The notes under the pieces are model-generated. The model did no database searches, was not told the DNA's origin, and was given only the letters and a program-made list of their open reading frames with translations. Of a stretch of 49,293 nucleotides of DNA, positions 2,019 through 49,227 are shown piece after piece. This DNA comes from a virus, in IMG/VR virus record IMGVR_UViG_3300031976_000023, positions 1-49,293 of that record; one strand, written 5' to 3'. Position 1 is the first letter of the stretch. Every line of letters starts with the position of its first letter. The translations under genes were made by a program, and so were the position numbers.

Positions 2019-4067
2019 ATGAAACACCTAACCCTAGACGTAGAGAACACAGTGGTCAAACGCAATGGCAAGTTACATCTTGATCCGTTTGAGCCAGAGA
2101 ATACATTGGTTATGGTAGGGATGCTAGATGATCTTGGGAACGAAAACATTATAACTTTCGATCACGCAGAGCAACAACCTACCACAGAGGGTCGGCAAAT
2201 AGTGCAAGACGCATTGGATGCTGCCCCTCTACTTATTGCACACAACGCACCGCATGACTTGCTCTGGCTATGGGAGTCAGGCTTTGAGTATGACGGTGAG
2301 GTATTTGATACCCTGTTGGGTGAGTACGTACTGCAGCGTGGACAGAAGCAGCCACTATCCCTTGAGGCATGTGCTGAACGGTACGAGTTAGACACAAAGA
2401 AACAAGACACATTAAAGGAGTACTTTAAAGATGGATATTCCACACGTGATATACCTCATGCTGAACTATCAGAGTATCTATCGCACGATCTACATGCTAC
2501 TCAGCAATTGTATAATGTTTTGCAGACATCATACGAGGGATGCAGTTCACTAGTACCAACGGTACAGTTGACCAACCAGTTAGCCGTACACCTTGCACGT
2601 ATATATCAACGTGGGTTTAAGGTTGACGTAGATGCACTGTCTCAAGTGCGTACTGAGTTTGAACATGAACGTAATGCCTTGACGATGGCACTTGAAGAAC
2701 AGGCCAGTGATCTTATGGGTGACAGACCTATCAACCTCAACAGTCCAGAGCAATTGTCATGGGTTATCTACAGCCGTAAGCCACATGACAAAAAGATATG
2801 GGCAGATATGTTTGATGAACGTATGCCTGATGCAGAGTACAGACGTAACGTAAGTAGATACAGCGAGAAGTTGTACAAACAAAAAGCGTATCAATGCCGT
2901 GAGTGTAATGGTACTGGACAGATATGGAAACAAAAGAAGGATGGGACACGATATGCCAGATCAAATAGATGCAGCACATGTAATTCTACAGGTTTTACTT
3001 ATAGGAATATATCTACTAGCCTTGCGGGGCTAAAGTTTACACCACCTAATTCCAAGTGGATTAGTGCCAATGGTTTTGGTACGGGTAAAGACAACCTTGT
3101 ATTCCTTGAAGGTGTAGCACGTTCCAAGGGCATGAGAGATGCAGTTGTATTTCTACAAAATGTACGTAGATTGTCTGCAGTTGAGACATATCTCAGCAGC
3201 TTCGTAGAGGGCATAGCAACGCATGTAAAACCTGACGGTATGCTGCACGTAAGATTACTTCAACATCGTACTGGAACAGGCCGTTTGTCAGGGGCAGACC
3301 CCAATATGCAGAACATGCCACGTGGCGGTACGTTTCCTGTCAAAAAGGTGTTCGTATCACGATGGAAGGGTGGTAAAATTATGGAAGCTGACTTTGCACA
3401 GCTTGAATTTCGTGTCGCTGCCTTTCTGTCACAGGACATGACTGCCATTGATGAAGTAACCACAGGATTTGATGTGCATAGTTATACTGCAAAGGTTATA
3501 TCTGATGCAGGTCAGCCTATGTCACGACAAGATGCCAAGGCACATACCTTTGCTCCTTTGTATGGAGCGTCAGGGTTTGGTCGTAGTCCTGCAGAAGCGG
3601 CATACTACCAACAGTTTACGACAAAGTATTCTGGTGTAGCTAACTGGCACAAGGCATTAGCCAGTGAAGCATTGAACACTGGTAAGATAACTACACCATC
3701 GGGGCGTGAGTTTGCGTTCCCTGATGTAGCAAGGCGAAGGTTCGGGGGTGTGACATATTTCACACAGATTAAAAATTATCCTGTTCAATCGTTTGCAACT
3801 GCTGACATTGTACCCATATCTCTGATATACATAGATAAGCTACTAACAGCAAACAAGTTACGCAGTTGCGTAGTCAACACGGTGCATGACTCAATAGTAA
3901 TTGACGTACACCCAGAAGAGGAAAGGAAAGTATTACGAGTAATAGAAGCAGCAAATGACAAACTAATAGCAATCGTCAATCGCAAGTGGGACATAGATTT
4001 TAACATCCCTCTACTATTAGAGGCAAAAATAGGTCCAAACTGGCTTGACACAAAAGACGTAGCGTGA
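2019..4067 (+). CDS. polA: Family A DNA polymerase with 3'-5' exonuclease and inserted DnaJ-type zinc finger
   Basis: This is the replicative phage polymerase (682 aa from this start). The ATG at 2019 follows AAAGGGG at 2001-2007; an upstream in-frame start at 1980 would overlap the previous gene and add residues unlike the family. The exonuclease has D7-V-E9, HNAPHD with D80, and YLSHD with D157. INLNSPEQL precedes the thumb. An insert at residues 293-326 has CRECNGTG and CSTCNSTG, that is, two CxxC pairs (C293, C296, C318, C321) of DnaJ central-domain type. Polymerase motif A is DFAQLEFR (D458), motif B has R503, K507 and Y515, and motif C is VHDS (D624). The same insert is known from phage HMO-2011 of a SAR116 bacterium, which anchors the classification of this genome. 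Confidence 0.96.
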   Translation: MKHLTLDVENTVVKRNGKLHLDPFEPENTLVMVGMLDDLGNENIITFDHAEQQPTTEGRQIVQDALDAAPLLIAHNAPHDLLWLWESGFEYDGEVFDTLLGEYVLQRGQKQPLSLEACAERYELDTKKQDTLKEYFKDGYSTRDIPHAELSEYLSHDLHATQQLYNVLQTSYEGCSSLVPTVQLTNQLAVHLARIYQRGFKVDVDALSQVRTEFEHERNALTMALEEQASDLMGDRPINLNSPEQLSWVIYSRKPHDKKIWADMFDERMPDAEYRRNVSRYSEKLYKQKAYQCRECNGTGQIWKQKKDGTRYARSNRCSTCNSTGFTYRNISTSLAGLKFTPPNSKWISANGFGTGKDNLVFLEGVARSKGMRDAVVFLQNVRRLSAVETYLSSFVEGIATHVKPDGMLHVRLLQHRTGTGRLSGADPNMQNMPRGGTFPVKKVFVSRWKGGKIMEADFAQLEFRVAAFLSQDMTAIDEVTTGFDVHSYTAKVISDAGQPMSRQDAKAHTFAPLYGASGFGRSPAEAAYYQQFTTKYSGVANWHKALASEALNTGKITTPSGREFAFPDVARRRFGGVTYFTQIKNYPVQSFATADIVPISLIYIDKLLTANKLRSCVVNTVHDSIVIDVHPEEERKVLRVIEAANDKLIAIVNRKWDIDFNIPLLLEAKIGPNWLDTKDVA

Positions 4068-31292: not shown

Positions 31293-32366
31293 CTACGCTG
31301 CGTTATAACGAGCAGTTACGATTGCTTCTGGACGAAGAATCTTCCTGCCGTATAAATGCATACCACGAACAATGTCAGCAAAGCTGTCAGGGTCACGGTA
31401 TGTTTCTGTCTTATTGATCTGCTCTGCAGTTGCTACAGCAGAATCGTGACCAGCTACGACAACGCCGAAGTTAGTCAGTTGGTTTGCAGAACCTGTAGTT
31501 CCCGGTCCAGTACCTACTGATGGCAGGTTAGACGAGGAGTATACACGGAAGCCGTGGAAGTTGTTAATGGAAAGACCATTACGCAATCCACCTGATTCAC
31601 CGAAATCTGCGTTCATAAAGCGTGAATCTTCATCAGCTAAGATTTCCATAAATACTGGATCTACCACTAACCAGCGACCTTGCTTATCTACTTGCTGTTG
31701 ATCAAGTAAACGAGCCATACGTGCTACAACCATAGCTGGTGAAGCAGTTGCCGTTGGAAGTGCAGTCGCACCCGGTAAACGTGCAGCTAAAGGAATAGAG
31801 TGTGTTCCTGCGGAACTAGTAGTAATATTCCCAAAGTCTCCCTTATGAAGTTGCATAGAAGATAGCAACTCATTCGATCCTGCAGTTGATACTGCTTTAG
31901 TACCGTTTACAGTTGAGTTCAGTCCATCAGCTTGTGAGTGCAATGAAGACTGTGCATAACCAGCCATGTATCCAAGAACTTCTTGGTCATGTTGATCTGC
32001 CAAACGGTATGCAGCACGATTAGATGCGAGATCCATGAAGTTTACATGACTATGAGCTTCTTCAATATCGTCCATCTTGAAAGCAAAATAGTTAGCTTTG
32101 TCAATGACTAATGAAAAGTCTTCGTCCTGTAAATCCTGTGCTGTGACATTCGTGCCACGTGCATACTGCGAAACAGAAATTTCTGGTTCCTTAATGATCT
32201 TGACGGTATCGCCTTGACCACTTATCTCTCCGAAATAATCGGAGTTAGTAATGTCACCACAGACAGTAGCTTTGCGGAACGCAAGCTGTACCTGTTTGCT
32301 GTAAATGACCGGGCTAAAATTACCATTTGGTAGATTTCCATAACCCGTAGCTGTCGTAAATGCCAT
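31293..32366 (-). CDS. Major capsid protein
   Basis: The start at 32366 (MAFTTATGYGNLPNGNF) follows AAGGAT, giving 357 aa; a longer frame from 32441 would run into the leader and adds unlikely residues. It has QVQLAFRKATVCGDI, a linker rich in Gly/Ser, ARLLDQQQVDKQGRWLVVDPVF, GESGGLRNGLSINNFHGFRVY (beta) and LHLYGRK-like DIVRGMHLYGRKIL at the end. This is the HK97-fold major capsid pattern of T7-like marine phages. It lies between scaffold and tail tube genes. A strong promoter and a ~200-nt structured leader precede it. Confidence 0.9.
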   Translation of the reverse strand: MAFTTATGYGNLPNGNFSPVIYSKQVQLAFRKATVCGDITNSDYFGEISGQGDTVKIIKEPEISVSQYARGTNVTAQDLQDEDFSLVIDKANYFAFKMDDIEEAHSHVNFMDLASNRAAYRLADQHDQEVLGYMAGYAQSSLHSQADGLNSTVNGTKAVSTAGSNELLSSMQLHKGDFGNITTSSAGTHSIPLAARLPGATALPTATASPAMVVARMARLLDQQQVDKQGRWLVVDPVFMEILADEDSRFMNADFGESGGLRNGLSINNFHGFRVYSSSNLPSVGTGPGTTGSANQLTNFGVVVAGHDSAVATAEQINKTETYRDPDSFADIVRGMHLYGRKILRPEAIVTARYNAA

Positions 32367-32570
32367 TGTATTATCCTTTGCATTGAGACACAGATACAAA
32401 CTAAAATCGTTTTTAATGAGGCTAACTCTATTGGGTAACATTATTGTAGAAAGTTGGCCGACCTTCTATATAACGGGCCAAAGATATTAGGTAATCGCTA
32501 GAACTATTTATGTTTGTGAAGATGAGCTAATGCGGGTAGTCCATAAATGGGGCCGCATTAAACCCGATGT
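32367..32570 (-). promoter_or_regulatory. Structured 5' leader of the major capsid gene
   Basis: About 200 non-coding nt lie between the capsid promoter and its ATG. Two inverted repeats stand out: AATGCGG/CCGCATT (32529-32535 with 32553-32559) and TTGGCC/GGCCAA (32454-32459 with 32476-32481). They could stabilise the mRNA or control translation. No open frame of note is present. Confidence 0.5.
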
Positions 32571-32575
32571 ATATA

Positions 32576-32603
32576 GTTATATTCTTTATACTCGTATTGT
32601 CAA
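32576..32603 (-). promoter_or_regulatory. Sigma70-type promoter of the major capsid gene
   Basis: Reading leftwards: TTGACA (32603-32598), 16 nt, TATAAC (32581-32576). This is a near-consensus host promoter in the gap between scaffold and capsid, with transcription expected to start near 32569. It would raise capsid transcription above the rest of the operon, as for the strong gene 10 promoter of T7. It also indicates use of the host polymerase. Confidence 0.75.
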
Positions 32604-43907: not shown

Positions 43908-44046
43908 TGTGTTTCTTTTGCACAGCAAAATTAGCAGTAAGACTTGCCCCTTTGTGAGGGACAAACTTACCTGTGTGTTTCATTACTTTCATACTACCAT
44001 CTTTTTGTTTCATCCAATGATAGCCTTTAGGTGCGTTTACCTTCAT
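43894..44046 (-). CDS. Small basic protein (50 aa)
   Basis: This 50-codon frame starts inside the previous stop (TAATG at 44044-44048) and overlaps the next gene by 14 nt. MKVNAPKGYHWMK opens, with KHTGKFVPHKGASL later. The pattern (NAPKG-H-WMK, then KHTGKFVPHKGA) is familiar from small basic proteins in marine phages. The function is unknown. The continuous overlaps support a real gene. Confidence 0.65.
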   Translation of the reverse strand: MKVNAPKGYHWMKQKDGSMKVMKHTGKFVPHKGASLTANFAVQKKHNGKK

Positions 44047-44228
44047 TATTTATACCCTCCACCTTTAGCTTTGTATTGTTTTGCAACCATTTGAGCTTTA
44101 CGTGCGCTCCACTGTCCGGGGCGTCCACCTTTGCCACTAGCCTTAACGGATGCCACAAGACGCTTACGCATAGTAGGCTTAGTATAATTACCAGCCGCAT
44201 TAACCGTAGAACCTTTTTTGGATTTCAA
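44046..44228 (-). CDS. DUF6321-like basic protein (60 aa)
   Basis: The 60-aa protein reads KGSTVNAAGNYTKPTMRKRL, then KGGRPGQWSARKAQMVAKQY and a KGGGYK tail. This highly conserved small basic protein is widespread in marine phages and has been grouped as DUF6321. It is probably a nucleic-acid-binding or virion protein. It overlaps the DUF1127 gene by 29 nt in another frame and the following gene by TAATG. Confidence 0.75.
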   Translation of the reverse strand: MKSKKGSTVNAAGNYTKPTMRKRLVASVKASGKGGRPGQWSARKAQMVAKQYKAKGGGYK

Positions 44229-44340
44229 AACGTGATACTCCTATGTCCTGTAGTTCTCTGTCTGTCATATTTTGCAACAACCAGTAGTCTACTCTGCGCT
44301 GTTGATTTTCTTGTAGTCTTTTAATAAATCTTTTAAACAT
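44200..44340 (-). CDS. DUF1127 family small protein (46 aa)
   Basis: This 46-codon frame has TAAAAGGAGTTATACC as leader. The sequence MFKRFIKRLQENQQRR, then DYWLLQNMTDRELQDIGVSRFEI, matches DUF1127 (L-x-x-M-(S/T)DREL-x-DIG-(L/V)-SR-x-x-I). In alphaproteobacteria DUF1127 proteins bind RNA and regulate small RNA stability or metabolism (CcaF1 of Rhodobacter is an example). Its presence in a phage suggests a captured host gene that acts on host RNA or regulation. Its start sits at the foot of a hairpin. Confidence 0.8.
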   Translation of the reverse strand: MFKRFIKRLQENQQRRVDYWLLQNMTDRELQDIGVSRFEIQKRFYG

Positions 44341-44378
44341 GGTATAACTCCTTTTATATTACCAAGGACAGTTATACC
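44341..44378 (-). promoter_or_regulatory. Inverted repeat over the DUF1127 ribosome-binding site
   Basis: GGTATAACT (44341-44349) and AGTTATACC (44370-44378) form a perfect 9-bp inverted repeat with a 20-nt loop. In the mRNA the AAGGAG of the DUF1127 gene is partly in the loop and partly in the stem, and the stem ends directly at the ATG. It may limit translation. Confidence 0.5.
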
Positions 44379-44426
44379 ATGCTTTATGTTAAAGTACTAC
44401 ATACAAGATTGCAATCCCGTTATGCA

Positions 44427-44594
44427 TTATTTTTTCTTAGCGGCTGTTTTCTTTTTAGCCATGCCACCGTACATCATCTTTGCTGCAGGTTTCTTTTTCT
44501 TAGGCATACCACCCTTCATCATTTTGCCAACACCGTCAGCGGCAAATGCAGGGACTTTCTTACCGTTCTTTTTAACCATAGGCATCTTAGCCAT
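44427..44594 (-). CDS. Small Lys/Met-rich Gly-Gly-motif protein (55 aa)
   Basis: This 55-codon frame has AAAGGAGTACAC as leader. It opens MAKMPMVKKNGKKVPAFAAD, then has MMKGGMPKKKK and MMYGGMAKKK before a lysine tail. The MM-x-GGM motifs also appear in the 195-aa protein at 45498-46085. It is strongly basic, which fits a DNA-compacting or virion-packaged peptide. Similar short Lys/GGM proteins occur in marine phages without known function. Confidence 0.65.
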   Translation of the reverse strand: MAKMPMVKKNGKKVPAFAADGVGKMMKGGMPKKKKPAAKMMYGGMAKKKTAAKKK

Positions 44595-44989: not shown

Positions 44990-45358
44990 TTAAAATTTAA
45001 TCTTTGCACCCATTGTAATATCACCAAACGTAAAGTCTTTGTCTGATGATACTTCTGTGTATAGATTTACATTTACTTTAGGTACTGCATATCCAAACGT
45101 AAGATCTACACCAGTAAAGATATTATCTTCGTCTAACTTCAATAGATCAATCTTTGTTTCTGCAAGTAGGCTTACACCCATTACGTTTACACCTGCATAG
45201 GGAGTCAGATCCCATGCCCATGTTTCTACGCCTGTTGTGTAATTACTGTCTGACTGTGCGCCAACGGATACTGTCTGACCCATTACATAAAAGTCTGCAG
45301 CCGTAGATGCAGTAGTTACAAGACCTGCAAGGCCAAGTGCAATAGCTAATGTTTTCAT
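44990..45358 (-). CDS. Secreted outer-membrane-like beta protein (122 aa)
   Basis: This 122-aa protein has a signal peptide (MKTLAIALGLAGLVTTASTA, with AxA-type cleavage after residue 20). The mature part has alternating strands (FYVMGQTVSVGAQ, WAWDLTPYAGVNVMGVSLLAETKIDLL, VDLTFGYAVPKVNVNLYTEV) and ends in GAKIKF, an aromatic C-terminal residue as in outer membrane beta-barrels. It is too short for a normal 8-strand barrel, so it could form a half-barrel or oligomer. A phage-made outer membrane protein could block reinfection or change the surface. Confidence 0.7.
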   Translation of the reverse strand: MKTLAIALGLAGLVTTASTAADFYVMGQTVSVGAQSDSNYTTGVETWAWDLTPYAGVNVMGVSLLAETKIDLLKLDEDNIFTGVDLTFGYAVPKVNVNLYTEVSSDKDFTFGDITMGAKIKF

Positions 45359-45372
45359 TGTATGTTATTTCC

Positions 45373-45498
45373 TTATGTTGTTTTTTTTGCAGCAGCGGCT
45401 TGCTGTCTACGCATTTGTGCTTTAGTTTTTTTATATGCTGTACGGAATTGTGATTCAGTCATATTTTTAAGATCACTTTTAATTGATGTACGTTTCAT
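45373..45498 (-). CDS. Small basic helical protein (41 aa)
   Basis: This 41-codon frame starts inside the stop of the 195-aa gene (TAATG at 45496-45500). It is basic and helical (KSDLKNMTESQFRTAYKKTK, then RRQQAAAAKK). There is a good ribosome-binding context for the next gene after it. The family is unknown. The overlapped start and lack of other frames in the gap support it. Confidence 0.55.
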   Translation of the reverse strand: MKRTSIKSDLKNMTESQFRTAYKKTKAQMRRQQAAAAKKTT

Positions 45499-46085
45499 TA
45501 CTTCTTACCATTTTTCATAAACATACCACCCATACGATAGTCTGTATTTCCTGTACGTGGTTTAGATGTAGTCATTCCACCGTACATCATATCTTTTGGT
45601 CTTGTCTTAGGGCGTGTGACCTTTTCTTCTTTTCTAGTTACAGGACGTTTGGATGTTTCTGGTGCAGAAGACTCTTTATCTTCTAACATAGCCTTTGCTA
45701 AAGCGGCATTAATAATTTCTTTATCTGCCCTTGCTTTTGCTCTTGCTTCTTCTGTCTTAGCTTTTTTTTCAGCCACCTTAGCCCTTGCTAATTTTTCTTT
45801 TAATTTATTTTGTTTATCTTTAAGTGCCATTGCAACGGCAGTACCACCCCCAACTGCACCTATAGTTGTAGCCTGTCGTGCTAGTTGACGAGCATTTTGC
45901 ATACCCCTAACACCGGGTTTAGTTTGTTTTACACCCTCCCTTACAGGAGTAGTTAAATCTTTAACGTGTTTCTTTGCTTCCGTTACAGCTTTTTTGCCAT
46001 ACTTTTTGACTGCTGCAGTAACACCTTTTTTTACAATAAATCGAGCTACGGCTGCAACTGCTACTGGAATTAGTGGTAATGCCAT
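45498..46085 (-). CDS. Ala/Lys-rich helical protein with GGM motifs (195 aa)
   Basis: This 195-aa protein opens with a hydrophobic segment (LPLIPVAVAAVARFIV), then a very basic helix (KKYGKKAVTEAKKHVKDL) and a Gly-rich stretch (GAVGGGTAVAMAL). A long Ala/Lys/Glu coiled coil follows (LKEKLARAKVAEKKAKTEEARAK...). The tail has MMYGGM and YRMGGMFMKNGKK, the motif shared with the 55-aa protein. It may be a small internal or DNA-associated virion protein. The ribosome-binding site is AAAGGA. Confidence 0.65.
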   Translation of the reverse strand: MALPLIPVAVAAVARFIVKKGVTAAVKKYGKKAVTEAKKHVKDLTTPVREGVKQTKPGVRGMQNARQLARQATTIGAVGGGTAVAMALKDKQNKLKEKLARAKVAEKKAKTEEARAKARADKEIINAALAKAMLEDKESSAPETSKRPVTRKEEKVTRPKTRPKDMMYGGMTTSKPRTGNTDYRMGGMFMKNGKK

Positions 46086-47276: not shown

Positions 47277-47300
47277 AAAACCGTCCAATATTGGACAGAA
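47277..47300 (+). repeat. Palindromic early-region element, copy 1
   Basis: The core is CCGTCCAATATTGGACAG flanked by AAAA on the left and AA on the right. It lies 113 nt before the 213-aa early gene. It has the same orientation as the other three copies. Confidence 0.8.
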
Positions 47301-48128: not shown

Positions 48129-48151
48129 AAACCGTCCAATATTGGACAGAA
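48129..48151 (+). repeat. Palindromic early-region element, copy 2
   Basis: CCGTCCAATATTGGACAG with AAA before and AA after. It lies directly after a terminator and 18 nt before the ATG of the 59-aa gene, whose ribosome-binding site (AGGAAG) starts just behind it. Confidence 0.85.
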
Positions 48152-49070: not shown

Positions 49071-49094
49071 AAAACCGTCCAATGTTGGACAGAA
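49071..49094 (+). repeat. Palindromic early-region element, copy 3
   Basis: CCGTCCAATGTTGGACAG with AAAA before and AA after. One centre base differs from copies 1 and 2 (G for A). It lies 18 nt before the ATG of the 30-aa gene. Confidence 0.85.
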
Positions 49095-49205: not shown

Positions 49206-49227
49206 AACCGTCCAATGTTGGACAGAA
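49204..49227 (+). repeat. Palindromic early-region element, copy 4
   Basis: CCGTCCAATGTTGGACAG with AAAA before and AA after; its left end overlaps the preceding stop codon. It lies 13 nt before the next ATG, with AGGAGAG as ribosome-binding site in between. Confidence 0.85.

Follow-up and report, generated by a model that had tools for sequence, protein, structure and literature searches.

A predicted timing switch ahead of the DUF1127 gene of HMO-2011-type podoviruses

Why does a phage carry a gene for a DUF1127 protein, and when during infection is that gene put to use? The window analyzed here, the whole of an IMG/VR virus record 49,293 bases in length, raises both questions. By its gene content it is an HMO-2011-type podovirus, having the portal, terminase, and replication genes of that group. 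The portal is 82% identical to that of Roseobacter phage CRP-1 and 79% identical to that of HMO-2011, genes for the major head protein, tail, and DNA polymerase are present in the record, and TerS and TerL are matched as well. Phages of this type are described as a dominant and widely distributed marine group (PMC9038755). A sequence-only reading of the window had described a clear DUF1127 protein in the late operon and had proposed from it an alphaproteobacterial host and manipulation of host RNA turnover. The best evidence on how the gene is used is a predicted promoter and a predicted hairpin in front of it, both of which were missed in that reading.

The open reading frame begins with ATG and encodes the Arg/Lys-rich protein MFKRFIKRLQENQQRRVDYWLLQNMTDRELQDIGVSRFEIQKRFYG. 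Its match to Pfam PF06568 (DUF1127) covers profile positions 2–36 of 37 with an E value of 5.8e-7, and at 29.6 bits it lies above the curated cut-off of 23.3, which bears out the description as a clear DUF1127 protein; no other DUF1127 match was found in the whole record. Codon comparison of relatives gave dN/dS values of 0.05–0.29 for 13 of 14 pairs; the closest pair, with only 3 nt differences, stands at 0.43. By this measure the DUF1127 gene of HMO-2011-type phages is under purifying selection. A chance open reading frame at this place was rejected on the evidence of selection, synteny, and the Pfam match, and a Shine-Dalgarno (SD) sequence is also present.

Homologues were sought in sequence collections with the DUF1127 alignment as the query. 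Among phage records, the protein search turned up the gene in 11 isolates of HMO-2011 type, at the same place upstream of terS in each, and the hosts of all 11 are Rhodobacteraceae. The gene was absent from HMO-2011 (SAR116 host), two pelagiphages (SAR11), two rhizobial phages, one environmental relative, and the Vibrio phage CHOED. From IMG/VR, 80 DUF1127 loci were kept, nearly all of them with terS, terL, or portal neighbors of HMO-2011 type, and wherever a leader locus had a terS match (69 loci), the distance to terS, always downstream of DUF1127 on the same strand, was 0.13–2.7 kb. The placement in a late operon is right by gene context, with endolysin, terS, terL, portal, and head genes downstream on the same strand. 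The orthologous gene of Roseobacter phage CRP-603, gp69 (UAW59236.1), is already annotated as a DUF1127 domain protein, in an annotation that describes no leader or promoter, whereas in the other 10 isolates the ortholog is labeled hypothetical or is unannotated. The gene of CRP-13 (L007), at 3501–3665, is among those missing from the GenBank annotation. Weaker matches were found in a Zobellviridae phage (CRP-5) and in an Ochrobactrum phage, with other gene surroundings. The CRP-5 gene (L014, 3474–3671) belongs to a second, unrelated lineage; it is located among early and nucleotide-metabolism genes, with overlapping neighbors, and has neither the promoter nor the hairpin of the HMO-2011-type DUF1127 genes.

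The proposal of an alphaproteobacterial host is well supported by the hosts of the 11 gene-bearing isolates and by the nearest bacterial proteins, which are almost all alphaproteobacterial. Phylogeny, named beforehand as a check on this point, gave no placement outside the alphaproteobacteria in a tree of 53 columns in which little is resolved. The HMO-2011-type sequences form a group with a support of 81 that also takes in CRP-5 and a single long-branched bacterial sequence, and the phage group sits within a mostly alphaproteobacterial family. The best-scoring bacterial match is 47% over 40 residues, and the phage sequences cluster apart from the sampled bacterial ones. Bacterial DUF1127 proteins, such as CcaF1 from Rhodobacter, the SDPs from Agrobacterium, and YjiS from E. 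coli and Salmonella, have the Pfam domain and the length class in common with the phage protein, but the phage genes have their own promoter and leader.

The gene that follows, phrog_17747, has its TTG start codon and SD inside DUF1127 codons. The overlap is kept in close relatives, most of which have GTG as the start codon, and translation of phrog_17747 is probably coupled to that of DUF1127. On the other side of the gene, 44990–45358 (−) encodes a protein of 122 residues with a signal-peptide-like start and an alternating pattern that hints at a small beta barrel of the outer membrane, with no Pfam family. Two small Lys-rich proteins, encoded at 44427–44594 and 45498–46085 (−), have MMYGGM-type motifs common to both, and their homologues recur in related phages at shifting positions.

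Despite the tight packing of these genomes, about 45–110 nt are left free in front of DUF1127. A set of 39 leaders, less than 85% identical to each other, was assembled. In 38 of them a motif resembling CGGG(G/T)(T/A)TGCA is found 42–45 nt before a TATAA(C/T) −10 box, and the 39th (L009) also conforms when the first of its boxes is taken. From the −10 box to the ATG, by comparison, the distance varies from 31 to 63 nt over the 39 leaders. The fixed spacing of motif to box, combined with the varying distance of box to ATG, indicates that the motif and the box are one rigid unit, as expected of a promoter with an upstream activator site. The motif, which is TAACGGGATTGCA in the window, is probably such a site. 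It keeps a fixed distance and takes the place of a clear −35 element, which suggests that the promoter is probably activator-dependent and late-firing. The coordinates of the elements in the window are collected in Table 1.

Table 1. The DUF1127 gene of the window, its neighbor, and the elements of its leader and predicted promoter
Feature	Position	Strand	Basis or remark
Next gene, phrog_17747	44046..44228	−	PHROG E 3.5e-30; overlaps DUF1127 3' end by 29 nt
DUF1127 gene, 46 aa	44200..44340	−	Pfam PF06568; homologues in 11 roseophages and 80 IMG/VR loci
3' arm of inverted repeat, covering SD end, spacer, and start codon	44335..44349	−	15 nt, 93% complementary to 44370–44384
SD of DUF1127, AAGGAG	44348..44353	−	Sequence; predicted unpaired 0.02 in read-through RNA, 0.92 in promoter RNA
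Anti-SD UCCUU of inner stem, ending at predicted transcription start (44364)	44364..44368	−	RNA folds
5' arm of inverted repeat, overlapping −10 box	44370..44384	−	Read-through RNA −32.5 kcal/mol, z −4.5
−10 box TATAAC of inferred DUF1127 promoter	44371..44376	−	Fixed spacing to upstream motif, 39 leaders
Upstream promoter motif TAACGGGATTGCA, about 55 nt before predicted start site	44410..44422	−	Conserved in 39/39 leaders; single copy in the window

The full promoter motif has a single match in the window, with 0 expected. A scan of IMG/VR with the DNA pattern (TATAAC form only), in which the gene was ignored, gave at least 117 promoter places, at least 113 of them followed by a DUF1127 open reading frame; the remaining four places among the pattern matches listed look like chance. 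The TATAACTAT box alone is unenriched in the window (29 found versus 31 expected), and the argument for a promoter therefore rests on the full motif and its spacing. A generic promoter scan showed no excess over shuffles and missed the DUF1127 promoter. A search for the promoter in HMO-2011 and six further relatives gave a single hit, in HMO-2011, and it resembles an ordinary sigma-70 promoter. No strong terminator was seen between the nearest upstream genes and the DUF1127 promoter.

The main question then is which part of the leader would be present in RNA from this promoter and which in RNA that reads through from upstream. In the predicted fold of the read-through RNA of the window, the inner stem of the hairpin pairs UCCUU with AAGGA, whereas for RNA that begins at 44364 no significant fold is predicted (−2.4 kcal/mol, z +1.0). 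Among the genes of the window that were tested and have an SD, that of DUF1127 is the most buried. RNA folding was computed at 37 °C for the 37 leaders with a recognizable SD. On average the SD has a predicted openness of 0.10 in read-through RNA versus 0.61 in RNA starting at the promoter, and it is higher in the latter in 37 of 37 leaders, a count that overstates independence since the leaders are related by descent. For comparison, openness is 0.39 in shuffled leaders (30 sets, with set means of 0.32–0.45) and 0.47 at 133 other open reading frame starts with an SD in the same phages. The 13 leaders that are less than 55% identical gave 0.07 for read-through RNA and 0.62 for promoter RNA. 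Openness also depends on the position of the RNA 5' end, being 0.26 at −6, 0.46 at −3, and 0.61 at 0, the predicted start; the rise at this position is informative because nothing but the −10 box was used to place the start. Four leaders (L055, L061, L069, and L090) show little difference in openness between the two RNAs, and in some leaders the promoter RNA is still partly folded over the SD.

The arms of each hairpin pair better with each other than with arms swapped between phages (−14.3 versus −9.4 kcal/mol), which shows that the pairing is kept while the sequence changes. Could the inverted repeat nevertheless be a DNA operator for a repressor or an activator, and not an RNA structure at all? 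The length of the repeat in the window and its overlap with the −10 box are in keeping with this idea. However, the sequence and spacing of an operator would be expected to stay constant, whereas loop length, arm sequence, and the position of the arms relative to the −10 box all vary among the phages while complementarity to the SD is kept. We regard a DNA operator as highly improbable.

The position of the pairing relative to the −10 box follows two geometries. In most leaders the anti-SD comes directly after the −10 box. In the leaders L008, L009, L044, L070, L077, L033, and their relatives it is wholly upstream, and the −10 box is in the hairpin loop. The anti-SD is at or upstream of the predicted start site in both. 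That both geometries exclude the anti-SD from the promoter RNA points to selection for its exclusion, and argues against a DNA operator as well as against a leader element that is part of all transcripts.

An element of the latter kind would be a 5' UTR riboregulator, transcribed from a promoter further upstream, with the hairpin present in every RNA and opened by a ligand, a protein, or temperature; DUF1127 might perhaps bind its own leader, or the hairpin might perhaps protect the 5' end of the mRNA. About 16 of the 39 leaders (among them L004, L007, L011, L012, L020, L024, L038, and L073) do have a second TATAAC box 14–15 nt upstream, many with a good −35 element (TTGCAT/TTGCA-type, 17-nt spacer), and RNA from this box would carry the whole hairpin. 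Control by an mRNA leader is also reported for a duf1127 gene of Sinorhizobium (PMC12218461). Yet most leaders are without the upstream box and have kept the motif, the −10 box, and the hairpin all the same. The arms share little sequence beyond the SD and its complement, unlike what a fixed binding site would show, and the location of the −10 box in the loop in one subgroup also speaks against a riboregulator, as does the Rfam search, which returned implausible sub-threshold matches only. This explanation therefore seems to us quite unlikely.

The reading that we favor, with a probability of roughly 0.7, is that these phages own a DUF1127 gene with a built-in timing switch, whose start site and promoter use are predicted from the leaders. 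Comparison of the sequences does establish the gene, the unit of motif and box, the conserved pairing, and where that pairing sits relative to the −10 box. Read-through RNA from the upstream genes, assumed to be transcribed earlier, would carry the anti-SD; the hairpin would then hide the SD (and in the window phage the start codon too), and DUF1127 would hardly be translated. RNA from the gene's own promoter would begin at or just after the anti-SD, the hairpin could not form, and DUF1127 would be translated. The endolysin, terS, terL, and portal genes come after this promoter, and translation of DUF1127 may also feed the overlapping phrog_17747. We suggest more tentatively, at somewhat less than even odds, that a dedicated activator-dependent late promoter, so far seen only before phage DUF1127, couples promoter choice to translation, and that DUF1127 is a timed late effector that would be harmful if made early.

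A switch of this design is experimentally established for gene e (lysozyme) of phage T4 and is also described for T4 soc, gene 49, and I-TevI (PMC3014915). The gene e promoter is next to the ribosome binding site, and its RNAs lack the 5' half of a hairpin by which the SD or start codon is concealed in the longer transcripts made earlier (PMC3014915). The DUF1127 leader is similar in that its read-through RNA is predicted to fold over the SD (0.10 versus 0.39 for shuffles, and z −4.5 in the window), and in that the promoter is placed so that its RNA, by the inferred start site, lacks the 5' arm. It differs in that it occurs in an unrelated podovirus group, has DUF1127 in place of lysozyme, and is a prediction from sequence. 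The box sequence differs too, being TATAAC(T/A), or TATAAT, with the CGGG motif, and not the T4 late promoter TATAAATA (phage sigma factor gp55). The DUF1127 switch is thus predicted to work like the T4 switch while standing outside the T4 late promoter class.

The duf1127_1 gene of Sinorhizobium meliloti is controlled by transcription attenuation via an upstream open reading frame in a 279-nt leader (PMC12218461). It has in common with the phage gene that a DUF1127 protein is under mRNA leader control, which for the phage is predicted, but the phage leader is about 20–50 nt long and has an SD-hiding hairpin, with no upstream open reading frame seen. Burial of the SD is less strong in bacterial DUF1127 leaders (mean openness 0.31, starts uncertain), which makes it unlikely that the phage leader simply came across from a host.

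We found no earlier report of a DUF1127 timing switch in the open-access literature. DUF1127 occurs there in 30 papers, which include none of those found on HMO-2011-type phages, and neither promoters nor DUF1127 come up in the main HMO-2011 paper (PMC9038755). For these phages there is now a predicted promoter whose start site is precisely placed, a translation switch that can be tested, and a named gene family that they share with their hosts. If the switch is real, the T4-type timing device arose independently elsewhere, where it guards a regulator rather than a lysis gene, and there is reason to ask what role phage DUF1127 has late in infection.

What then might the protein do? Most likely it serves as a small helical adaptor that works on a host regulator. 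A fold of three helices is predicted (pLDDT 73), with no significant match in the PDB, and a PDB sequence search with the protein gave weak SAM-domain matches only. Two bacterial precedents were considered, either of them compatible with the switch. The earlier idea that the phage protein binds RNA and redirects host RNA turnover is modeled on CcaF1 from Rhodobacter sphaeroides, a DUF1127 protein reported to bind RNA and to act together with RNase E (PMC10253847). The nearest phages infect Rhodobacteraceae, the family of Rhodobacter, and the Arg/Lys-rich composition also fits. However, DUF1127 proteins from Agrobacterium and E. coli bind PhoR, and RNA binding was not seen for YjiS from Salmonella (PMC12501420). 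RNA binding is not universal in the family, and an RNA role is disputed for it (PMC12501420). By analogy such a role is possible for the phage protein, though we would lean against it.

The second precedent would have the phage protein bind a host sensor kinase such as PhoR and change how phosphate is taken up while late replication and packaging are under way. In its favor, an Agrobacterium mutant is restored by the DUF1127 proteins of Sinorhizobium, Rhodobacter, and E. coli, and the kinase PhoR is bound by those of Agrobacterium and E. coli (PMC12501420). On the other hand, host DUF1127 dampens the Pho system, and the benefit to a phage is not obvious. This analogy, too, we consider rather unlikely to hold for the phage protein, and the probability that these two readings leave goes to some other role.

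Elsewhere in the window, a strong sigma-70-like promoter, TTGACA-16-TATAAC, is located at 32576–32603 (−), 135 nt before the major head protein gene (31293–32441), and has the same TATAACTAT box as the DUF1127 promoter. Four copies of a nearly palindromic sequence, CGTCCAAT(A/G)TTGGACAG, are present at 47282–47298, 48133–48149, 49076–49092, and 49209–49225 (+), where 0.01 are expected. They lie in gaps ahead of early genes, two were flagged on the minus strand as a hairpin followed by T-runs, and they are possibly early operators or two-way terminators.
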